Translations under genes and position numbers: made by a program
Source of the DNA: an uncultured Oscillospiraceae bacterium
GTDB lineage: Bacteria > Bacillota > Clostridia > Oscillospirales > Oscillospiraceae
Reading direction: 5' to 3'
Length of the DNA: 42,254 bases
Assembly: GCA_947631845.1 (NCBI GenBank)
Contig: CANRMY010000017.1
Location: forward strand, 1-42,254
The notes under the pieces: generated by a model
Told to the model about the DNA's origin: nothing
Seen by the model: the letters and a program-made list of their open reading frames with translations, nothing else
Database searches by the model: none
Shown: positions 18,994 to 29,418 of the stretch, piece after piece
Layout: every line of letters begins with the position of its first letter
How positions within the stretch are numbered: the stretch's first letter is position 1

Positions 18994-21624
18994 TTATACC
19001 AGGAACATCAGAACGATGGAGGCCAGGCAGATGGCGGTAAAGGCGGTCATGCCGGGATTCAGCCACACCGCCCGGAGGCGGCCCCGGCGGGGGAGCTCCT
19101 GAGGGGCGGGGTCAAAGGAGGCGCGGCGGAACCGGACACAGAAGAGCACAAGACCGGCAACGAACAGCACCAGGATCACAAAGCCGAAGGCCATCAGGGG
19201 CAGGAGCTGATTTCCCAGCTCCAGGATGGCGGCGGTGTCGGACAGATCCAAATTGGTCAGCGCCTCCGGATCCACCCGTCCGATCACCCAGGGGGCCAGA
19301 ACGCCGCCCAGGAAGTTGATGAGCATATGGATGGAGACGGAGAAGCGCAGGCGGCCTGTCTTCAGGTACACATACCCCAACACCAGGCCCAGGGCAAAGG
19401 CGTAGAAGAACTGGCTCAGATTGCCGTGGAAGAGGCCGAACATCAGCGCCGATGTGACCGCCGCCAGCCGTTCTCCATAGACGTTCATCCGGTCGATGAG
19501 CTGTTTGCGGAAGACGTATTCCTCGATGAGCGGGGCCAGGATCACCATGACCAGCGCCTGCAAAAGCGGGTACTCGCCGCCGGTGAAGGTATCCAGGGGA
19601 TTGGCCGAGGCGGCCCCGGAGGCGGACTGGAGGAGGCTCAGGAGCAGCGTTCCCGCAAGGTTGCTGGCGTACATCACAAAGACGGCGATGATGGCGATGA
19701 TGGCGAAATGCCCCGCGCCCAGGGGCTTTTTCTCCCGGGGCGACGCGGGGACCTTCCGGATCACCAAAAGCCCCAGGGGGACGGCCAGGACGTACATGGG
19801 CGCGAAGGTGGTCAGCCACAGCATCCAGCCTGGCTCGCCGCCCTCCGGCCAGATGAGGTAGGTCACAACGCCGAAGAGGAGCTGGAAGACGGCGGCGGAG
19901 GCATAAATGACGAACGCGCCCAGCCCTAAGCGGGAGAACCGTTTTTTGGCCTCGTTCAGATCCCCGTCGCCGGCGGCTCTCACCTTTCCGCCCTTGGGGT
20001 CGATGAAGATCGGCGCCAGGGCGAAGAAGATCAGGCCCAGGGCCACGTTGCAGAGCGCCGCGCACAGGATGGCCGCGGGGGCGGCGTGGAACACCGTCAT
20101 CCCCACCACAGCGATGACCGCGTCCGGCAGGAGGCCGAAGTAGATGAACATGATCTGAATGACCTGCTTGAGCATCTTCCCGGCGGAGACGGGCACGGAG
20201 AGATTGATGAAGACGCCCACGGCGGTGGCATAGAAGTCCACGGAGACGATGGCGGGCACCGCCAGCAGGGCGTAGAGCAAATTTGACCCGCCCAGGATTG
20301 CCCCCAGGAGCATAGCCGGAAGCACATCCAGGGCGCAGCAGACGGTACTCCCCATCAGCGACCAGAACAACTTGGCCCAGGTGGACTCGGGGATCAGCAG
20401 GAAGAAGCCCATGCCCGTGTCCTGGGCCAGGGGGTTGCCCAGGGACCGGAAGAAGGCCAGCGCCCCCACGGTCAGGGCCATGGGGATCAGAGGGTCGGTG
20501 TGGGCGGCGAACCGGCACACGGCGGCCACCAGCAGGGCGGCGGCGATGTACGTCTCCATGGTCTTGGTGAGAAAGCCCAGGTGGGCGAAGCGGCGGCGGT
20601 TATACATGGTCTTCCAGAAGTAGATGTTGGCGCCGCGTCCCCGGTTCAGGCCGTCCCGCAGAAGCTTTTCGTTCCGGTCCTTCTTGCGCCGGACGGCCAC
20701 GCCGGTGGCTTCGGACTGGGCGGCGGCCATCAGCTCCGCCCGCTCCTCGCTCTTGGCCATGGCGTCCTCGTAGAAGTCGGCCTTGATGTTCCAGATGATA
20801 TAAATGAGCAGGCCGCCGCCCACAAGCAGGGCCAGCAGGGACAGGAGCGCGCCGGTCAGATCCCCCCGGACGGCGAAGCCGGCAAAGCCCTTGATCCAGC
20901 CCCAGAAGGGGATGAAGCGGGTGACGGGGGCGTTGAAGAAGCTGTTTGCCGCCGCCAGCCACCCCTCCTCCGTCCGGGAGGCGTAGAGGATGAAGGCCAC
21001 GGCGATCGCCGCCACCAGCAGGTAGAGCCCCCGGCGGAGATTGCGCTTCACGGCGGGATAGGTGGCGGAGAGAGTGTAGAGGGCCAGCTGGATCAGCACG
21101 CCGAAGGCCACGGTGAGGCACCAGGCCGCTATCAGCGCCAACGCCGACCACAGGCTGAGGCCCAGGTTCATTACCAGGTTGGGGAGTTGAAAGAGCATAT
21201 AGACGCTCCCTAAGATCCCCACGCCCATTTGGGTGGCCAGCCGGAACATCAGCACCGACTGGGGCCGCATGGGCGACGGAAACAGCAGATTCACGTCCGC
21301 CGGCTGGAAGATGGCGCTGCCGTTCATGTCCGCGTTCAGGGCATAGAAGAAGAAAATCACCATCACAAGGGCGCCCGCCGCCAGCTCCACTATAGCGGCG
21401 GCTTCTTCAGGATCCGGCGTCTCGGCGGGATCCTCTATTTCGCCGGCGATCTCCCCCTCCGGGGGCAGATCCTCCGGCTCTTCGCCGTCCACCAGCGCCG
21501 CGATCAGGCCGATGGCCACACCCAGCACGACGCAGACCAGGAAAAACACAAGCACCCAGGTCTTAAAGAGCTTTTTCAGCTGGTTTTTGAAGGTGTGGAG
21601 GGCGTAATATCCGAAAAAGCTCAT
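18994..21624 (-). CDS. Putative ABC exporter membrane protein fused to a CPBP intramembrane metalloprotease
   Basis: 876 residues and at least 14 hydrophobic segments. The N-terminal 550 residues resemble the putative ABC exporter membrane family, with a large extracytoplasmic acidic loop at about 46-78. The C-terminal third (about 560-800) is a CPBP/Rce1-type protease: EExxxR at Glu701, Glu702 and Arg706, FxxxH at Phe729 and His733, and HxxxN at His766 and Asn770, the full set of catalytic motifs. CPBP proteins cleave within membranes and can process or protect against peptides. Its ATG overlaps the stop of the ABC ATPase by 4 bases, so the two form one transporter. A joint export-and-processing role is inferred; substrate unknown. 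Confidence 0.85.
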   Translation of the reverse strand: MSFFGYYALHTFKNQLKKLFKTWVLVFFLVCVVLGVAIGLIAALVDGEEPEDLPPEGEIAGEIEDPAETPDPEEAAAIVELAAGALVMVIFFFYALNADMNGSAIFQPADVNLLFPSPMRPQSVLMFRLATQMGVGILGSVYMLFQLPNLVMNLGLSLWSALALIAAWCLTVAFGVLIQLALYTLSATYPAVKRNLRRGLYLLVAAIAVAFILYASRTEEGWLAAANSFFNAPVTRFIPFWGWIKGFAGFAVRGDLTGALLSLLALLVGGGLLIYIIWNIKADFYEDAMAKSEERAELMAAAQSEATGVAVRRKKDRNEKLLRDGLNRGRGANIYFWKTMYNRRRFAHLGFLTKTMETYIAAALLVAAVCRFAAHTDPLIPMALTVGALAFFRSLGNPLAQDTGMGFFLLIPESTWAKLFWSLMGSTVCCALDVLPAMLLGAILGGSNLLYALLAVPAIVSVDFYATAVGVFINLSVPVSAGKMLKQVIQIMFIYFGLLPDAVIAVVGMTVFHAAPAAILCAALCNVALGLIFFALAPIFIDPKGGKVRAAGDGDLNEAKKRFSRLGLGAFVIYASAAVFQLLFGVVTYLIWPEGGEPGWMLWLTTFAPMYVLAVPLGLLVIRKVPASPREKKPLGAGHFAIIAIIAVFVMYASNLAGTLLLSLLQSASGAASANPLDTFTGGEYPLLQALVMVILAPLIEEYVFRKQLIDRMNVYGERLAAVTSALMFGLFHGNLSQFFYAFALGLVLGYVYLKTGRLRFSVSIHMLINFLGGVLAPWVIGRVDPEALTNLDLSDTAAILELGNQLLPLMAFGFVILVLFVAGLVLFCVRFRRASFDPAPQELPRRGRLRAVWLNPGMTAFTAICLASIVLMFLV

Positions 21625-22352
21625 TCCGGCGTCCCCTCCTCCGGCGCGCCGGCGCTCTGCCCCTCGGTCACGTCAAAGAAGAGCTGCTCCAGCGTCTCGC
21701 CCCGCTCCGCCAGCTCCTCCCGGCCCACGTTGGCCCGGATCTGTCCGGCGTCCATGATGAGGGCCCGGTCCCACAGCATATCCACGCTGTCGATGATGTG
21801 GGTGCTGACCAGGAGGGTACAGCCCCGAGAGCGCAGCTCCTCGATGATGAGCTTCAGCTCCTTGATGGCGTGGGGGTCCAGGCCGATCATGGGCTCGTCC
21901 AGGAGGATGACACGCGGCTCCGGCAGGAGGCCCAGGCAGATGTTCAGCTTCTGCTGCATCCCCTTGGACAGCTCGTCGCCGAATTTGCGCCGCTTGTCCT
22001 CCAGCTCGAAGCGGCGAAAAAGCTCGTCGATGCGGCCCTTGTAGTCCGTCAGCTTATAGGCCCGGGCCAGGAACTCCATGTGCTCGGACACCGTCAGGTT
22101 GGGGTACAGGGACGGCATCTCCGGGATGTAGCCCAGCAGGCGGCGGGCCTCCACCGTCTTGTTGGGGTATCCCCCCACGGTGATGGCGCCCTCAAACTTG
22201 AGAAAGCCGATGACGGACTTCATCAGGGTGCTTTTCCCCGCGCCGTTGGGGCCTAAAAGCACCGTGACACTCCCCGGCTCCAGGCGAAAGCTCACGTCGT
22301 CGCAGGCCGTGACCTTGCCGTATTTTTTGGTGACATGGGAAACTTCAAGCAT
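21621..22352 (-). CDS. ABC transporter ATPase, partner of the exporter/CPBP fusion
   Basis: 243 residues from ATG at 22352 with ACGGAGG 10 bases upstream; a longer in-frame reading back to 22481 runs through the terminator hairpin and leader and is not used. Walker A GPNGAGKST (34-42), Q-loop YIPEMPSLY, signature LSKGMQQK, Walker B ILLDEPMIGLD and the switch His in VSTHI are present. The C-terminal tail continues for about 40 residues, as in CcmA/NatA-type exporters. It is transcribed first, followed by a 4-base overlap with the membrane component. The leader at 22392-22571 suggests premature-termination control of this operon. Confidence 0.93.
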   Translation of the reverse strand: MLEVSHVTKKYGKVTACDDVSFRLEPGSVTVLLGPNGAGKSTLMKSVIGFLKFEGAITVGGYPNKTVEARRLLGYIPEMPSLYPNLTVSEHMEFLARAYKLTDYKGRIDELFRRFELEDKRRKFGDELSKGMQQKLNICLGLLPEPRVILLDEPMIGLDPHAIKELKLIIEELRSRGCTLLVSTHIIDSVDMLWDRALIMDAGQIRANVGREELAERGETLEQLFFDVTEGQSAGAPEEGTPE

Positions 22353-22391
22353 CAGGTATACCTCCGTTCTTTTCCGTAGGCCGGACCACAC

Positions 22392-22420
22392 AAAAAAACG
22401 CGCGGCAATTACGCCGCGCG
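22392..22420 (-). terminator. Terminator-like hairpin inside the ABC operon leader
   Basis: On the minus strand an 8-bp stem (22413-22420 pairing with 22399-22406, 6-base loop) is followed by seven T residues (22392-22398). It lies between the operon promoter and the ATPase start codon. The sequence GGGCCGCG just upstream (22428-22435) could pair with the CGCGGC of the first terminator arm, giving an alternative antiterminator. Confidence 0.7.
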
Positions 22421-22444
22421 CGAAAAACGCGGCCCGACCTTCTG

Positions 22445-22538
22445 TTGCCACACAGTTACATCCAGACAGGAATGCGGTCAAGGCATACGTTTTTACCCAT
22501 AGTATGCCCGTCTGAATGTGTATTTAACTGTGTGGCAA
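22445..22538 (-). ncRNA. Candidate structured 5' leader RNA of the ABC exporter/CPBP operon
   Basis: A 94-base region folds as a long composite hairpin on the minus strand. P1 is a perfect 14-bp helix (22525-22538 with 22445-22458). P2 is 9 bp with one G-T pair (22510-22518 with 22459-22467), separated from P1 by a 6-base bulge on one side only. P3 is 7 bp (22502-22508 with 22482-22488) closed by a 13-base loop, and an asymmetric 1-by-14 internal loop separates P2 and P3. Transcription from the promoter at 22543-22571 should start right at P1. A terminator hairpin then precedes the ribosome site. This is the layout of a riboswitch or other attenuator; it does not match a class I know. A miniature inverted-repeat element is the main alternative. 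Confidence 0.55.
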
Positions 22539-22542
22539 ATTC

Positions 22543-22571
22543 AATATAGCACATTTTGTCAAATTTGTAAA
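22543..22571 (-). promoter_or_regulatory. Promoter of the ABC exporter/CPBP operon
   Basis: Minus-strand TTTACA (22566-22571), 17-base spacer, TATATT (22543-22548). The expected start is at the first bases of the structured leader. The interval 22353-22668 holds no gene: it contains this promoter, the leader RNA, its terminator-like hairpin and the terminator of the SLH remnant. Confidence 0.7.
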
Positions 22572-22668: not shown

Positions 22669-23194
22669 TTACTTTTCCATGGTCAGGTACGCGGTCAGGA
22701 TCTTGGCCAATTCACAGCGTTTGGCGTTTCCGGCGGGGTCGAAGGCGCCATCGTCCTTGCCGTTGACGATCTTGTTCATACTGCACCAGGCCACCGCCTC
22801 GTAGGCCCAGGCGCTCACCTTGGCGCTGTCGGAGAACGGCAGCGGGAACATCCACGCGCCGGTGAAGCCGCCGCCCTTGTACTGCTCGTAGCGGTAGAGC
22901 ATCGCCGTCAGCTCCTCGCGGTTCACCGGCCTGTCGGGCCGCAGGGTGCCGTCTTCATAGCCGTCTATGATGCCCTCGCTGGCCGCCCAGCGGACAGCCT
23001 CGGTGTACCACTGGCCCTCCTTCACGTCGCTGAACTGCATCAGGTAGTCCACAACGGGGTTTTTCTCCCGGTTCCAGAGGGTCATGATCACGGCGGCGCG
23101 GGTAACGGCGCCGTTGGGATCGAAGAGGCCCCGGTCGTTGCCGTGCATCAGGCCGTTTTCGATGACGTAATCGGTGTATTTGTGGTTTTTTCAT
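22669..23194 (-). pseudogene. SLH-domain protein with broken N-terminus
   Basis: The frame ending at 22669 encodes three SLH modules: a partial first (HKYTDYVIENGLMHGN...FDPNGAVTRA), a second (FSDVKEGQWYTEAVRWAASEGIIDGYEDGTLRPDRPVNREEL) and a third (FSDSAKVSAWAYEAVAWCSMNKIVNG). The ATG at 23148 lies inside the first module and has no ribosome site. A textbook start (AGGAGG, then ATG-AAA-AAA at 23194) lies 46 bases upstream in a different frame, joined through an A6 run, and a stop closes the SLH frame there. A signal peptide is missing. Either a deletion removed it or a one-base change in the A run broke the gene. Without repair the product could not be exported. Confidence 0.7.
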
Positions 23195-23293: not shown

Positions 23294-25342
23294 TCAGCAC
23301 CACCGCGGCGGCGTCCATGCTTCCGGCATGGTATCCTTATCGTAGAAGCGGTACCGGTGCTTTCCCCCCTGCTTTGCGGCGTACAGCGCCGCGTCCGCCG
23401 CCCGGTAGAGCCTGTCGTACAGGGCCCCTTCGGCGGCGGAGAGCGCCACGCCCATAGAGACGGTGATGCTGCGCCCCTCTATCTCAAAGCAGAGGTTGTT
23501 GTAGATACGGTCGATGGTGCTCTCGATCCGGCCGTTGTAATCCAGGAACAGAAAAAACTCCTCCCCGCCCGCGCGGCAGCAGATATCGGAGCTTCGGACG
23601 CTGTGGCTCATGCGCCGGGCCAGCTCCCGGAGCACCTGGTCGCCGAACATGTGGCCCAGCTGGTCGTTGACACGCTTGAAATCGTCGATGTCGATCTCCG
23701 CCAGGGCGAAGCGGCCATGGGGCTCCTCTTTCATCCGCAGCTCGATCTGCTCCCTGGCGCTGCCCCGGTTCAAAAGTCCCGTCAGGGAATCCCGGGTCGC
23801 CTTTTGGGTGAGCTCCTCCATCTTCAAATGGGCGTCATGGATGTCCATGACGATCCCCAGGACCCCCTCACAGAGGGGCACGTCGTCGGTGGACCAGAGC
23901 GTCTGTGCCACGACCCGGTGCCAGCGGGAGGCGCCGTTGTAGTGCAGGACGCACTCCACCCGGACCCGCGGATTTTCGGGGGTGGTGGATCTGAAATGCT
24001 CCTCCAGATCCTCCCAGCCCCCCTTCCCCAGCACACGGGTCAGGGCCTCATCCCGGGCGGGGTTCACGATGGTTTCATTCAGTCCCAGCTTTTTCGCGCC
24101 CCACTCCGAAAGGGTGATCATGGGAGGAAAAGCGGTATACTCGAACCGGATCGCCTCTGTCATGGCGGCGTAGAAGCTGTTGCGTACCCGCTCCTTGTCC
24201 AAAAGCCGGAGGGTCCTCTCGGAGGCGCTTCCGCCCACCCTTTTCACCGTCTCCGTGGTGACGCTCCGGAGCTTTCTGCTCCTGGCATCGGCGATGGAGC
24301 CGGATCGGAGGGCCGCGCGGATCTGGGCGGAGTGCTCCCGGAGGCACTCCAGAAGAAGCGGGTTGAAGGATCCGCATTCGCCGCCCACGATCATCTCCAC
24401 GGTCTTTTCATGGGTAAGCGCCGGCTTGTAGACCCGCGTGCTGGTCAGCGCGTCGTAGACGTCCGCCAAAGCGACGATCTGGGCGGAGATTGGGATGTCG
24501 TCGCCCCGCAGGCCGTCCGGGTAGCCGCGCCCGTCCCAGCGCTCGTGGTGCCAGCGGCAGATCTCACAGGCCACCCGCACCAGCTTTTCATCCTTGTACC
24601 CCGGCAGGCCGCTGAGCATCTCGGCCCCGATGGCGGAGTGCTTTTTCATTTCCGCGAATTCCTCCGGCGTCAGCCGTCCGGGCTTATTCAGGATATTCTC
24701 ACTGATGGCGATCTTCCCGATGTCGTGGAGGGCCGAGGCGGTGCTGATGATGGAGATGTCGTCGGAGGTGAGGTTGTATTTGTCCGACTTCTCCAGGACA
24801 TAGCCCAGCAGCAGATCCGTGAGCTTCCGCACGTGGATGATGTGCGGGCCGCTCTCACCGTTGCGGAACTCCACGATATGGCTGAGGATATCGATCACCA
24901 GGTCGTTGTTCTTTTCCTTCTCGTAGATCTGTTCCTCCACCATGCCGAGGAGCTGTTTCCGCTTGGCGTACAGCAGCAGGGTGTTGATGACCCGGCGCCG
25001 GACCACCAGGGTATCAAAGGGCCGGGCGATAAAATCCGCCGCGCCCAGCGCGTAGGCCCGCTCCACCTGGGGGGAGGCGTTTTCGGCGGAGATGATGATC
25101 ACGGGGAGATCTTCGATCCAACGGTTTTTCTTCATGGCCTCCAGCACACCGAAGCCGTCCAGATGGGGCATGACGATATCCAGAAGCACCAGCGACAGCT
25201 GTGCGTGCGTTTTCTTCATCATGGTAATGGCCTGCAGGCCGTCCTCCGCCTCTACGACGTCGTACCCGTCGCACAGCATATCCGCCAGAAGTGAACGGTT
25301 CATCTCCGAATCGTCTACGATCAGTATTTTTTCCTTCTTCAT
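23294..25342 (-). CDS. Response regulator with HD-GYP, PAS and GGDEF domains (c-di-GMP turnover)
   Basis: 682 residues from the ATG at 25342, after which the receiver begins at once; a start at 25426 would add 28 unstructured residues. Receiver at 1-125 with phosphoacceptor Asp55, although the usual Lys near 107 is Arg. HD-GYP phosphodiesterase at about 140-330: HD at 206-207 (HDIGK) and HHERWDGRGYPDGL at 265-278. PAS-like region at about 395-505. GGDEF cyclase at about 515-672, active-site GGEEF at 592-596 with an intact inhibitory RxxD site (Arg583, Asp586) five residues before it. Both making and breaking c-di-GMP look chemically possible. It follows the pilus genes in the same direction, 137 bases on. 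Its output may be switched by phosphorylation and PAS ligand. Confidence 0.92.
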   Translation of the reverse strand: MKKEKILIVDDSEMNRSLLADMLCDGYDVVEAEDGLQAITMMKKTHAQLSLVLLDIVMPHLDGFGVLEAMKKNRWIEDLPVIIISAENASPQVERAYALGAADFIARPFDTLVVRRRVINTLLLYAKRKQLLGMVEEQIYEKEKNNDLVIDILSHIVEFRNGESGPHIIHVRKLTDLLLGYVLEKSDKYNLTSDDISIISTASALHDIGKIAISENILNKPGRLTPEEFAEMKKHSAIGAEMLSGLPGYKDEKLVRVACEICRWHHERWDGRGYPDGLRGDDIPISAQIVALADVYDALTSTRVYKPALTHEKTVEMIVGGECGSFNPLLLECLREHSAQIRAALRSGSIADARSRKLRSVTTETVKRVGGSASERTLRLLDKERVRNSFYAAMTEAIRFEYTAFPPMITLSEWGAKKLGLNETIVNPARDEALTRVLGKGGWEDLEEHFRSTTPENPRVRVECVLHYNGASRWHRVVAQTLWSTDDVPLCEGVLGIVMDIHDAHLKMEELTQKATRDSLTGLLNRGSAREQIELRMKEEPHGRFALAEIDIDDFKRVNDQLGHMFGDQVLRELARRMSHSVRSSDICCRAGGEEFFLFLDYNGRIESTIDRIYNNLCFEIEGRSITVSMGVALSAAEGALYDRLYRAADAALYAAKQGGKHRYRFYDKDTMPEAWTPPRWC

Positions 25343-25435
25343 GATGGCAGGGGTTCCTTTCTCCCGACTTCCCGGCTTGGAATTTATTTGAGCTCCTCCG
25401 TCCCGTATTTTCGCCTTGCCCCCCATCCCCCGCTG

Positions 25436-25479: not shown

Positions 25480-26028
25480 TTATTCAAACATCGGCGAGGC
25501 GGAGACTTCGCCCGACCACAGTTCGTCGGAGTAGTCGCTGAACACCGTGAAGGAGAATGTGACAACGGTTTTTTCGTCCCCTGCTCCTGAAACCTCAAAT
25601 TTCAGCTCCTTCAGCTTCAAAACGCCCCTGGCGCCGTAGATGTCGCTGTAGGCGTCCCGGGACAGGACCTGTTTTGTGACCGTCGTTGTACCTCCGGAAC
25701 TATTCTCATATGTATACTCCGCCGCCAGCTTGCCGTCCTCCAGCTTGATTTCGGCGTTCTCGCCGGAGAACGCGCTTTTTTCCAAAGCAAGTGTACCGCC
25801 AGCGGTGTTATCCTTATCGACTTTCCCCAGCCTTATCTCGTTGGAGACGGCCTCGATGACGGTGGAGGCCAGGATCTCGGCGTTGGCCGCCTCGGTCATG
25901 CGGTTGTAATGGGACATCACGGCGCTGGCGGCGGCCACGCCGCCGGCGGTCACCATGGACATGATGAGCAGGGCCGCCAGCATTTCCAGGATCGTCATGC
26001 CCCGTCGGGCTTTGAGCTTCCTTCTCAT
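25480..26028 (-). CDS. Minor type IV pilin, PilW-like
   Basis: 182 residues. A short basic leader ends RRG, cut before Met-Thr-Ile-Leu-Glu, so the mature protein has Glu5 and a hydrophobic helix (LLIMSMVTAGGVAAASAV). The C-terminal part is beta-rich with a likely pilin globular fold (KLKELKFEVSG...VTFSFTVFSDYSDE). PilW/GspJ-type minor pilins prime pilus assembly at the tip. Its ATG overlaps the preceding PilV-like gene by 4 bases. It is the last pilin of the operon; a hairpin and then the c-di-GMP gene follow. Confidence 0.85.
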   Translation of the reverse strand: MRRKLKARRGMTILEMLAALLIMSMVTAGGVAAASAVMSHYNRMTEAANAEILASTVIEAVSNEIRLGKVDKDNTAGGTLALEKSAFSGENAEIKLEDGKLAAEYTYENSSGGTTTVTKQVLSRDAYSDIYGARGVLKLKELKFEVSGAGDEKTVVTFSFTVFSDYSDELWSGEVSASPMFE

Positions 26029-26339
26029 GGCGTCTCCTTATACAGGGCAAGGCTGTTGTCCTCGGATCTATAGATTTCGACACTCGTCGAATCAACAACG
26101 GTGTCAGCGTCGTCGGTAATAACGACCGTATACGTGCCGCCGGCCTTTGTAGAATCCGTCAACGCCTCCACCCGGCTCAGCGCCTCATAAAACTCATCAT
26201 CCTTCCGCCGCGCGGTCAGGTTGATGCCGGCGGAGGCCGTGGACATGGTCGCCAGGAGCAGCGCAGCCAGGGTGATAATGAGCAGCGCGATCAGGACCTC
26301 GGCCAGCGTCTCGCCCCGGCGGGATCTGAATTTTCTCAT
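26025..26339 (-). CDS. Minor type IV pilin, PilV-like
   Basis: 104 residues: basic leader RSRRG, then Glu-Thr-Leu-Ala-Glu (Glu5 kept; first mature residue Glu instead of the usual Phe or Met), and a hydrophobic helix VLIALLIITLAALLLATM. The small C-terminal domain ends with a beta pattern TYTVVITDDADTVVDSTSVEIY. The family (PilV/GspI) forms the minor-pilin core with PilW, PilX and relatives. It overlaps the following PilW-like gene by 4 bases. Short but complete. Confidence 0.83.
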   Translation of the reverse strand: MRKFRSRRGETLAEVLIALLIITLAALLLATMSTASAGINLTARRKDDEFYEALSRVEALTDSTKAGGTYTVVITDDADTVVDSTSVEIYRSEDNSLALYKETP

Positions 26340-26357
26340 GAACAGTCTCCTTTCGGC

Positions 26358-26501
26358 TCAGGCGGGAGCCTTCTCAAAGGTGATCTGACGGTCCGCCCCG
26401 GACCAGGCGAGGGTCAGCGTCACCGTCGTGGTGGTCTCGCGCGTACCCGTTTCGGCGGTTCCGGAAGTCACTACTTCCGGTTCCTCCATCTTCGTTTCGA
26501 C
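26358..26501 (-). other. In-frame continuation of the PilX-like gene beyond an amber stop
   Basis: After the TAG at 26502-26504 the same frame stays open for 47 sense codons to TGA at 26358, with GC-rich third positions as in neighbouring genes. The end reads TVTLTLAWSGADRQITFEKAPA, a beta-strand pattern like a pilin C-terminus. This looks like the original end of the preceding gene. Readthrough, nonsense mutation or sequencing error are all possible. Confidence 0.6.
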
Positions 26502-27116
26502 CTAACCGGGCCACTCCACCTTCAACGGGTACGCGCTGCCGTCCTTGGTGGACAGGTACGCGATCAGGTTAAATGGCCCGTCAGCAGTCCCGTTTCTCAT
26601 GTTAACGTTGACCTCGTAAACGGAATCGGCCCACTCGGCATCCGCTAACCCCGATCTGTCCAGGTCGATGGTATAATTCTTATCGACATCTGTGGGAACG
26701 ACCCCAAACGAAGTCGGGTCTATATTGTCCCGCCACCCGGCGGGCAGACAGTTTTGGAGCATCAAATTCTGAAAATAAGTAATACCCGTACTCGGGTCTA
26801 ATGTGATCTCGTATTTTGGATCTTCAAACTCCGTTACCCCTGCTGCGTTAACAGTCCACTTCACCGTCTCCTTACGCGTCACCTCAATTGTGACCTTGCC
26901 CTTATCGCTGTTCATCCACCCCTGCAGGACCTTCAGCGCGGAGGCGGCGGAGAAATACTGTCGCTGCTCGTCCTCCAGGTGGGTGTAGCGGCCCACGTTG
27001 GAGGAGGCGGCGGTCAGGGCCGCGGTACCGGCCAGCAGGCACAGCAGGAACACCAGCAGGGCGAAGACCATGGAGGCGCCCCGGCGGCTTTTCAGCTTCT
27101 CAGAGATGCGCTTCAT
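26502..27116 (-). CDS. Minor type IV pilin, PilX/GspK-like (possibly truncated)
   Basis: 204 residues. Leader KSRRG followed by Ala-Ser-Met-Val-Phe and a hydrophobic helix ALLVFLLCLLAGTAAL. It lacks Glu5, a hallmark of the GspK/PilX-like subunit thought to sit at the very tip. The globular domain is larger than that of neighbouring minor pilins. The ATG overlaps the stop of the large GLUG pilin by 4 bases. The gene ends at an amber codon but its frame continues as an apparent C-terminal strand (26358-26501), so the natural product may be about 47 residues longer. Confidence 0.8.
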   Translation of the reverse strand: MKRISEKLKSRRGASMVFALLVFLLCLLAGTAALTAASSNVGRYTHLEDEQRQYFSAASALKVLQGWMNSDKGKVTIEVTRKETVKWTVNAAGVTEFEDPKYEITLDPSTGITYFQNLMLQNCLPAGWRDNIDPTSFGVVPTDVDKNYTIDLDRSGLADAEWADSVYEVNVNMRNGTADGPFNLIAYLSTKDGSAYPLKVEWPG

Positions 27117-29380
27117 GCGTTATCCTCCTCCTGCTCCCGGTAGAGGGCATAGCCGAAGATCTCCCGCTCCAGCCAGTCGCCGTAGTGGAGCATGGGGGTG
27201 TCGGCGGTGGCAGACAGCATGGGATAGGGATAGGGCGTGGTGAGGTCCGCCGTGTCAGCCGTCTGCTTATACGGGAAGGCGGCATAGGCGGGGTTTTCAG
27301 GGTCGGGGCTGGGGCTGTACCAGGTACCGCCCAGAGTGAGAGTGCCAGTGCCGGACTTCATCCCGGAGAGCTGCTTGGGGGTCAGGCCATTGCCGCTGTC
27401 ATCGGCATACTTCACCCCTGCCTGACGGACGTAGTAGGCATCGGTGGACTCAGCCGCGCCGTAGACGGTGACGGAACCGTCCCTGCTGCCACTGGCAACA
27501 GCGGAGCCGAGGCGGGTGACGGAGTAGCTGTTGTTGATACTAAGAGATCTGTCCGCTTCGGCCACGAGGCCGCCAACAGCGCCGGAGGCGTTGGCGATAA
27601 CGCCGGCGGCATAGGAATTGCTGATCGTGCCAACTCCTTCTTCTTTGCCCGTGAGGCCGCCCGCACACCCGTTACTATCAATATAGCTTGCGGCGTATGA
27701 AAAGCTTATCACGGATGTGCCGGTAGACGCGCCGACAAGGCCTCCGGCGGCGGCGTCCGCTCCTTCAGCCTTGATCGCGGTGGAGGCAAAGCTGTTGGAG
27801 ATTTCACAACCGTCGGCGGCGCCCACAAGGCCGCCAACGGTTTCGCCGGTGATCAGGGGGGCGCCATCAGCATCAGCAGCCGTAAAACCGGTGTCATTAT
27901 CATCCATCAGGTAGACCCGGCAGTTGAGAATGTTGAAATTTACAAGCCTCGCCGCAAGAGCGCCGCCGGCGCCTGTTGTGTTGACAAGGACGATATTCTC
28001 AAGCTTAGAATATCTACCGGCAGGGGCGGTCAGGGTGTCGAACATGCCGCCGGAGGCGCCCGCTTTCGCGGTCAGGTTCTTAATGGGCAGACTGTTCCCG
28101 TTGTAACCTTCCAGGTACTCGTTGTTAATGGGGGTGAAGTTTATAGCGGGGTATGTAGTCTTCCAGGAATATACAGATTCCTCCCCTGACGCGGGAGCCC
28201 TATTAAAGTCGATCTCCTGAAGCTGAACGGCTTTTGTGATATTATCTTTTACGCCGGAGGCGGCCTCGTTCAGATTCTGGAGATGCCGTCCGTAGGCGAT
28301 GCGGGCGGTTTTTGTAGTATCCTCGATGGACGCGAAGAGGCTGTTGGTGGTGGCGGTGGCGGTCTGGGAGAGGTACTGCAAGCCCGGATCGGTGCAGTAG
28401 GCCGTTACGGTGATGGTGATGTCCTCACCGGGGATAAGTGTATTATCATCGTTCCAAGCACTGAACGCTTTGCCGTATTCCCAGCCGGCGCCGCCTGTAT
28501 GCATCGCGGCATCTTTTCCGGTATATGATTTGAACGTGTCCAGCACGAGATCGCCCGTCCGGTCAAGACCAAGTTTAACCCATTTGCTCGCGTCGTTACT
28601 TTTCGCGAAAAGAACTTTTGTCTCCTTGCTGGATTGACCGGTTATGGAAATCGCAAGTCCGATTTTACCGTCAATTTCAGTCTTGTCAGATTCCGGCATC
28701 TTGATCCGCAGCACCAGCTCTTCGCCGTTGAGGACGGTAAGCTGGGGGATGGGCATCTGGCCCACCTTGGCGTAGTCGGTGCCGGAGCCGCCGCAGCAGC
28801 CCAGGCGATAGTTCAGCTTCAGGCGGTCGTCGAACGCGCGGGGCTCGTGGGTAAAATCACCCTCGTCTTTAAACTCCTTCTCGTCGGAATACCAGACGGC
28901 GTAGACCGCGCCGGTCTTGCGGTTGTACTCCACGATATAGCGCCCGTTCTCCAGCTCCCTGTCGATGGAGCCGCCGGGGAGGATGCGCTTGAGGGCGTCC
29001 TGATGGGCGGGTGCTATGGAATCCAGGAAGCGGAGATCTTTGGGGTCGCCGTGGCTCGGATCGGGCGCTTCCGCTCCGGAGGCGTCCGTTATTTTCGGAA
29101 AATCGGAGGGGGCAGGAACTTCACCGGATATATGATTCCCATCCGCATCCTTCGCGAAGTCCTCCAGCTCCCCGTTGCCGGCCATGGCGGTCAAGCTGTT
29201 TTGGGCGGCCAGAAAGATGGACTGAGCGGAACCGTCCATTTTTTTCAGATCAACGCGCTTGACGGCGCCGGCGACGGCGGGCACGCCGACCGCAAGGACA
29301 AGGGCGACGATCGCCACGACCACAACAACTTCAACCAGCGTGAAGCCCTTGCGGGATCTTCTGTTCCCCTTCAGGCCCAT
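27113..29380 (-). CDS. Large prepilin with GLUG repeats, candidate pilus tip adhesin
   Basis: 755 residues from the ATG at 29380, which has GGGAGG 9 bases upstream; a TTG three codons earlier is too close to that site. The leader RSRKG is followed by Phe-Thr-Leu-Val-Glu (processing after Gly12, Glu17 equals mature Glu5) and a pilin helix (VVVVVAIVALVLAVGVPAVAG). The next 320 residues are unrecognised but contain a pilin-like N-terminal segment. From about 362 the sequence has four GLUG-type repeats (GGLVG...ISNSYA-like at about 514-533, 544-565, 572-593 and 601-621), a repeat seen in secreted adhesin/protease proteins that builds a beta-helix. Size, repeats and location among minor pilins suggest a surface adhesin carried by the pilus. 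Confidence 0.85.
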   Translation of the reverse strand: MGLKGNRRSRKGFTLVEVVVVVAIVALVLAVGVPAVAGAVKRVDLKKMDGSAQSIFLAAQNSLTAMAGNGELEDFAKDADGNHISGEVPAPSDFPKITDASGAEAPDPSHGDPKDLRFLDSIAPAHQDALKRILPGGSIDRELENGRYIVEYNRKTGAVYAVWYSDEKEFKDEGDFTHEPRAFDDRLKLNYRLGCCGGSGTDYAKVGQMPIPQLTVLNGEELVLRIKMPESDKTEIDGKIGLAISITGQSSKETKVLFAKSNDASKWVKLGLDRTGDLVLDTFKSYTGKDAAMHTGGAGWEYGKAFSAWNDDNTLIPGEDITITVTAYCTDPGLQYLSQTATATTNSLFASIEDTTKTARIAYGRHLQNLNEAASGVKDNITKAVQLQEIDFNRAPASGEESVYSWKTTYPAINFTPINNEYLEGYNGNSLPIKNLTAKAGASGGMFDTLTAPAGRYSKLENIVLVNTTGAGGALAARLVNFNILNCRVYLMDDNDTGFTAADADGAPLITGETVGGLVGAADGCEISNSFASTAIKAEGADAAAGGLVGASTGTSVISFSYAASYIDSNGCAGGLTGKEEGVGTISNSYAAGVIANASGAVGGLVAEADRSLSINNSYSVTRLGSAVASGSRDGSVTVYGAAESTDAYYVRQAGVKYADDSGNGLTPKQLSGMKSGTGTLTLGGTWYSPSPDPENPAYAAFPYKQTADTADLTTPYPYPMLSATADTPMLHYGDWLEREIFGYALYREQEEDNA

Positions 29381-29418
29381 ACTTTCCAACCTCCCATCAA
29401 AAGGACAAAACCCGACGG

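Follow-up and report, generated by a model that had tools for sequence, protein, structure and literature searches.

The stretch of DNA that we analysed (the window; 42,254 nucleotides of contig CANRMY010000017.1 from an uncultured Oscillospiraceae bacterium) carries on its minus strand genes for an ABC exporter ATPase and for a putative ABC exporter permease fused to an Rce1-like CPBP domain, preceded by a promoter, a structured RNA element and an intrinsic terminator (Table 1). On the same strand, directly upstream of the element, lie genes for an SLH-domain protein and for a response regulator that contains both an HD and a GGDEF domain (22669-23148, 23294-25426). At 25480-29389 several frames have, by eye, prepilin- or pseudopilin-like starts, i.e. 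a short basic stretch and then a hydrophobic helix.

Table 1. Predicted features of the leader RNA and of the genes behind it (positions in the window)
Feature	Position	Strand	Basis and remarks
Promoter	22543..22571	minus	-35 TTTACA 22571-22566, 17-nt spacer, -10 TATATT 22548-22543; read from sequence
Entire leader RNA element	22392..22539	minus	Match of covariance models R1/R2
P1 5' strand TTGCCACACAGTTA	22525..22538	minus	Sequence and pairing across 87 copies
P1 3' strand TAACTGTGTGGCAA	22445..22458	minus	Sequence and pairing across 87 copies
P2 5' strand	22507..22519	minus	13-bp version of the minimum-energy fold; final two bases overlap P3
P2 3' strand	22458..22470	minus	Base 22458 is common to the 14-bp P1
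Strand a (P3 5' strand GGCATAC)	22502..22508	minus	Comparison of 13, then 87 copies; alignment-free pairing
Strand b (P3 loop and 3' strand) GGTAAAAACGTATGCCTTGACC	22476..22497	minus	Proposed anti-antiterminator; covariation, alignment-free pairing
Strand c AGAAGGTCGGGCCGCGTTTTTC	22422..22443	minus	Antiterminator 5' arm (GCCGCG 22433-22428) and U-tract pairing with b
Strand d (terminator 5' arm)	22412..22420	minus	Doubles as antiterminator 3' arm (CGCGGC 22418-22413)
Strand e (terminator 3' arm and T7)	22392..22407	minus	Arm 22407-22399, T7 22398-22392; sequence and pairing across 87 copies
Shine-Dalgarno-like GGAGG of the ATPase gene	22361..22365	minus	Read from sequence
ABC exporter ATPase, PF00005	21621..22352	minus	ATG at 22352; domain match
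Putative ABC exporter permease (PF16962) fused to Rce1-like CPBP domain (PF02517)	18994..21624	minus	Domain match

The original prediction had read a TTTACA-17-TATATT promoter, a composite hairpin and a T7-bearing stem before the ATPase ribosome site, and we recover all three. The promoter is sigma-70-like, P1 is a perfect 14-bp pairing, six nucleotides are looped out on the 5' side between P1 and P2, P3 pairs 22508-22502 with 22488-22482 around a 13-nt loop, and the terminator stem (22420-22399) runs directly into the T7 tract. The helices had been drawn correctly, but the minimum-energy fold of the single RNA sequence makes P2 13 bp long and has a weaker 5-bp hairpin (GGGUA with UGCCU) where P3 would be; the 7-bp P3 is found in a fold with DNA parameters and in the alignment of relatives. 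The leader RNA as a whole is markedly stable (fold z-score -5.4, with none of 200 shuffles equally stable), and the terminator is present in minimum-energy folds of window RNAs of at least 140 nt. An upstream arm had further been suggested to pair with the terminator, and GCCGCG is indeed able to pair with the terminator 5' arm, a pairing that is conserved among relatives and has weaker support in the independent set described below. New with respect to that prediction is that GGUAAAAACGUAUGCCUUGACC, from the loop and 3' side of P3, is complementary to the antiterminator arm.

The genome of the window has a single copy of the leader. A nucleotide search of 34 genomes of the genus gave 13 copies in 12 genomes (71-100% identity over the aligned part), all 13 directly preceding ABC ATPase genes, of two types, and more diverged copies were found with a covariance model in genomes G003 and G013. 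In G014 and G018, both about complete, no copy appeared in the family and order searches. Covariance model R1 gave matches in 97 of 400 family genomes (E<=0.01). A second model, R2, built from 87 diverse copies, matched 118 of 345 sampled order genomes and 87 of 341 sampled class genomes (both E<=1e-5), while in the phylum sample the own genome was the only match among 348. With 13 copies in the genus and many more in the order and class, the element is more than a chance arrangement. Copy numbers from these searches are lower bounds, as seven candidates per genome were scored in the family and eight in the order, class and phylum. Scoring 15 genomes in depth (E<=1e-4) gave 0 to 30 matches each, for instance 30 in G998, 28 in G964 and 23 in G783, and 2 and 0 in G017 and G014 of the own genus; the highest counts belong to the genus coded g265. 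Among the matches listed for a pattern of strand c (at least 120), the sources included Oscillospiraceae, Ruminococcaceae, Ruminococcus, Ruminiclostridium, Eubacterium, Monoglobus and "Clostridia bacterium", and many came from ruminant, deer and rabbit guts. One copy (L235, 6409-6579) sits close to the end of a viral contig of 6.7 kb from IMG/VR. In L270 (1795-1977) a Gut-1 RNA (RF01706) lies just upstream of the leader copy, scoring 72.7 bits on the minus strand (above the gathering score) and 38.8 bits on the plus strand (below it).

After removal of 3 of 111 model rows (one cut by the end of its locus, two short), 108 copies were combined with 98 and 83 others into a set of 289, of which 272 are distinct, 264 segmentable and 192 non-redundant. 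A same-strand frame with a ribosome site begins within 60 nt in 199 of the 258 distinct copies that have at least 300 nt downstream, and on the opposite side such a frame is present in only 13 of the 199 copies with enough upstream sequence. The promoter consensus of 196 non-redundant copies consists of a TTG -35 and a tgTGnTAnaaT -10 box; in 118 of these 196 the -10 box stops 3 nt short of the model start, and both boxes are found in 161, compared to 86 in shuffled upstream sequence. Judged from sequence, the element is a leader at the start of messages with its position tied to genes, and an intrinsic terminator lies between promoter and gene, as in an attenuator.

The genes behind the leader are diverse. 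Of the 211 non-redundant proteins encoded downstream, 149 were scanned with Pfam after truncation to 300 residues, and this gave BspA-type LRR_5 (22), AMP-binding (7), DZR double zinc ribbon (6), ABC (4), SLH (3) and HTH_3 (3) domains. By simple sequence criteria 37 of the 211 are lipoprotein-like, and another 76 contain a signal or a membrane stretch. In G998 (30 matches) we read 19 copies by eye, some of them quite diverged; the first frame looks secreted in 14 (seven of them BspA-like), starting more than 100 nt away in five of the 14, and a small AbrB-type-regulator-like protein follows three other copies. PADLOC and NCBIfam scans of the downstream proteins gave no clear function. We also observed 11 same-strand tandem pairs with a gap of less than 400 nt, one of which (L293) has a gene between the copies; tandem copies on one strand occur in L048, L053, L128, L139, L145, L181, L192, L238, L245 and L281. 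A further pair, in L265, is outside the count of 11 (it was removed by de-duplication) and has a ribosome site and start codon between the copies, as if leader and gene start had been duplicated.

The helices were examined by covariation in the 87 copies. When all column pairs were ranked by mutual information, pairs of P1, the terminator and P3 came out on top, and the b:c pairs 94-172, 101-164 and 93-173 ranked 11, 20 and 38, with non-structural pairs in between. P1 columns are 97.3% paired, with double changes in 11 of 13 pairs, and the lower helix of P3 is 81.9% paired. For P1, P3 and the terminator together 89.6% of cells are paired (slid controls 33-54%) and 403 cells carry double changes against 120 in shuffles, which ignore shared ancestry. 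For b:c, 91.3% of cells are paired (slid controls up to 65.5%), with 50 double-change cells against 19.6, and for c:d 85.5% (slid controls up to 72%), with 37 against 13.6, shared ancestry being ignored in both. Each of the three sets exceeded 500 shuffles for paired cells and for double-change cells; the number of pairs with a double change was reached by 30 of the 500 shuffles for b:c and by 37 for c:d.

As an independent set we took class-level rows dissimilar to the training copies (95 of 104); the model behind them does not include b:c. For b:c (A5/U5 and four core pairs), 846 of 855 cells are paired (816 when shuffled, maximum 827) and there are 57 double changes (5.9 when shuffled, maximum 38; shared ancestry ignored), with 73% still paired when the helix is slid by -2 columns. 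For c:d the support is weaker, with 883 of 947 cells paired (869, maximum 879) and 27 double changes (16.3, maximum 28). The CUC:GGAG part is uninformative here (368 of 379 paired, 367 in shuffles), because loci L115-L234 were fetched by a pattern that fixed parts of strand c, GGAG included. Without alignment, own partners pair better than mismatched ones for a:b in 185, b:c in 180 and c:d in 149 of the 192 non-redundant copies, and the four bases adjoining the A5/U5 tracts form 636 Watson-Crick pairs out of 768, compared to 523 +- 8 in 2000 permutations (maximum 554). P2 was tested in this way only, since its MAFFT columns are unreliable, and its own partner beats those of others in 184 of 186 copies.

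Some variants read by eye (L309, L296, L097, L103 and L105) keep two helices simultaneously. In L296, L299, L307 and other G998 copies the terminator loops are, again by eye, enlarged and contain a GGAG complement, as if it were kept for antiterminator pairing. In alignment A4, columns 146-159 and 149-156 covary, joining the 3' strand of P1 to the linker that follows P1 (UUGY..RCAA; Fisher 0.002 and 2e-7, ancestry ignored), and a small alternative hairpin is possible there.

These comparisons support, as predictions, six helices (P1, P2, a:b, b:c, c:d and d:e) and the placement of the element as a leader. The putative c:d pairing, an alternative that would exclude the terminator as in an attenuator, appears conserved, less strongly so in the independent set. 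Because strand b is common to a:b and b:c, strand c to b:c and c:d, and strand d to c:d and d:e, the five strands allow two consistent states, a:b with c:d and b:c with d:e. We consider it likely that the element in the window is a member of a family of cis-acting leader RNAs, apparently not yet described, which act as five-strand transcription attenuators. Transcription would start at or adjoining P1, after which strands a, b, c, d and e would compete. The polarity we infer is that in the ON state a:b forms, leaving c free for d, so that the terminator would be blocked and the gene read, and that in the OFF state b would capture c, the antiterminator arm, so that d pairs with e and transcription would stop. 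An input acting on the P1-P2-P3 domain would make the choice. With P1 intact, b:c is a pseudoknot across P1. On average the a:b, b:c and c:d duplexes have similar energies (-16.2 kcal/mol each in the 192 non-redundant copies; -18.1 kcal/mol for b:c in the window), and the terminator is stabler than the antiterminator in 155 of the 192, which fits a kinetic switch during transcription. Against this model, strand a has no U-tract in the clade of the window, so that a:b has only 7 bp; the single-sequence RNA fold lacks a:b, and the minimum-energy folds from 140 nt on contain the terminator.

The covariation also bears on an opposite polarity, in which the A-rich P3 loop kisses the U-rich antiterminator loop (AAAAAC:GUUUUU) and stabilises the antiterminator, making the P3 contact the ON state. 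The AAAAAC loop is unpaired in P3 in the clade of the window and could kiss, and the A5/U5 pairs of b:c could form alongside c:d. However, the covariation extends past the U-tract to columns 170-172 (196-198 in the independent alignment), which are inner antiterminator pairs and incompatible with c:d, so that b:c is more than a kissing contact, and in many copies a U-rich strand a would, by eye, close the loop; we regard this polarity as unlikely. A stronger contender, though still rather unlikely, is that a dedicated RNA-binding protein or a modified polymerase factor, and not a small molecule, reads the leader. In its favour, P1 holds sequence identity beyond what pairing needs (TGC.AC..AA) and one element serves many unrelated genes. 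A protein of an uncharacterised family may be the reader, but none of three known candidates fits the 12 carriers scanned: CAT_RBD, the host protein domain of LicT/SacY antitermination, was found in none of them, LoaP above its curated cut-off also in none (a weaker NusG-like match occurs in 11, and also in 13 of 14 control genomes), and ANTAR in seven, hence not as a partner common to all.

A MITE-like inverted repeat, the main alternative raised originally, or a mobile promoter cassette, in either case a dispersed repeat devoid of regulatory function, would explain the many copies at unrelated sites with their promoter included, and the 11 closely spaced same-strand pairs. Copies at unrelated sites with target duplications had been named as evidence for it, and the former indeed exist, whereas target duplications left no signal (the mean longest flank repeat is 4.16 compared to 4.12 in permutations), the leader position is fixed, orientation and distance are tied to genes, the competing helices covary and the genome of the window has one copy; we judge the repeat highly improbable, cassette-like spread and function being compatible. 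A stand-alone small RNA, placed before genes by chance, would account for the promoter and terminator of each unit and for the tandem units, but it would need the terminator only, and the antiterminator arm is conserved as well; together with the gene and ribosome site so often found within 60 nt on the same strand, this makes the small RNA quite improbable. An amino-acid or antibiotic attenuator with a translated leader peptide, in line with a terminator and antiterminator before ABC exporters and with a short ATG frame seen by eye in the window leader, is extremely improbable: a frame of at least 8 codons preceded by a ribosome site and closed inside the leader is present in only 6 of 192 leaders, and the ATG frame is, by eye, not conserved.

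The sensor and terminator/antiterminator geometry proposed originally is supported by the homologues upstream of ABC operons, which the suggested covariance search retrieved and which covary. Riboswitches that act through a terminator and antiterminator include those for purines and SAM (SAM-I). Like these, the leader has a promoter-proximal structured domain, an antiterminator opposed to an intrinsic terminator and a gene close by; unlike them it has no Rfam 15 match, and an extra strand, b, can capture the antiterminator arm. In trp-type attenuators the strands alternate as 1:2, 2:3 and 3:4, and neighbouring strands of the leader compete in alternating pairs as well. The leader differs in having a fifth strand, in the nesting of its strands within a P1-P2 domain and in the lack of a conserved leader peptide. 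T-box leaders also exert antiterminator/terminator control before many genes, as does this leader, but no T-box match was found in Rfam scans of the window and 44 loci, and no amino-acid biosynthesis or tRNA-ligase family is among the 25 commonest downstream families. The class had not been recognised in the original prediction, and scans of the RNA in the window and the 44 loci (gathering and E-value modes) brought no Rfam 15 family up to its gathering score; the matches below threshold were weak, for example ncS54 (25.8 bits, against 43) and Hrs12 (25.5, against 70).

Stav et al. (2019, PMC6429828) describe, in the accessible part of their publication, the SLH motif, a riboswitch candidate that precedes genes for surface proteins in Clostridia and other groups, Synergistaceae and Negativicutes included. 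They report 80 examples, roughly 60% of which stand before SLH-domain genes, and propose that the signal relates to the cell wall, c-di-GMP being one possibility. The leader likewise precedes surface-protein genes in Clostridia. In contrast to that description, SLH domains occur in 3 of the 149 scanned proteins behind the leader, and the phylum sample yielded the own genome only (Synergistaceae lie outside the search). Identity with the SLH motif is unlikely on the basis of the published description, as opposed to a sequence model. In the open literature searched, including the accessible parts of PMC6429828, PMC11109978 and PMC8040213, no description of the leader RNA was found, and the family is apparently undescribed; an unnamed entry in the tables of PMC8040213 could be this RNA.

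Given the surface proteins downstream and a gene beside the leader that holds the only GGDEF match of the own genome, c-di-GMP was an attractive ligand. No Rfam match to a c-di-GMP riboswitch was found. Of 38 chosen carriers, each with a completeness of 94% or more, 17 have no GGDEF match, including the 30-copy genome G998 and G227, which has 9 copies, so that c-di-GMP made by GGDEF proteins is unlikely as a general signal. The downstream genes are too mixed to name a ligand or factor, and conserved AUA, GG.AAAAA and GCARCAA in the leader may at most be suggestive of ligand binding. Our leading guess for the input, in which we place slightly less than even confidence, is that the RNA binds a small molecule or an ion; a protein or other factor comes next. 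It is similarly possible, though somewhat short of probable, that the leaders form a new class of riboswitch, common in gut Clostridia with as many as 30 matches in a genome. Such a class would sense a common signal other than c-di-GMP and switch a dispersed regulon rich in surface and secreted proteins by a five-strand exchange, with a P3 strand capturing the antiterminator arm.

The covariance model is available for annotating further genomes, and the question of the signal becomes testable by ligand screening on a single RNA. The leader may unite surface proteins, lipoproteins, exporters and small uncharacterised proteins in one regulon under one input. With up to 30 matches in a genome and no Rfam entry found, it points to a large unseen regulatory layer in gut bacteria.
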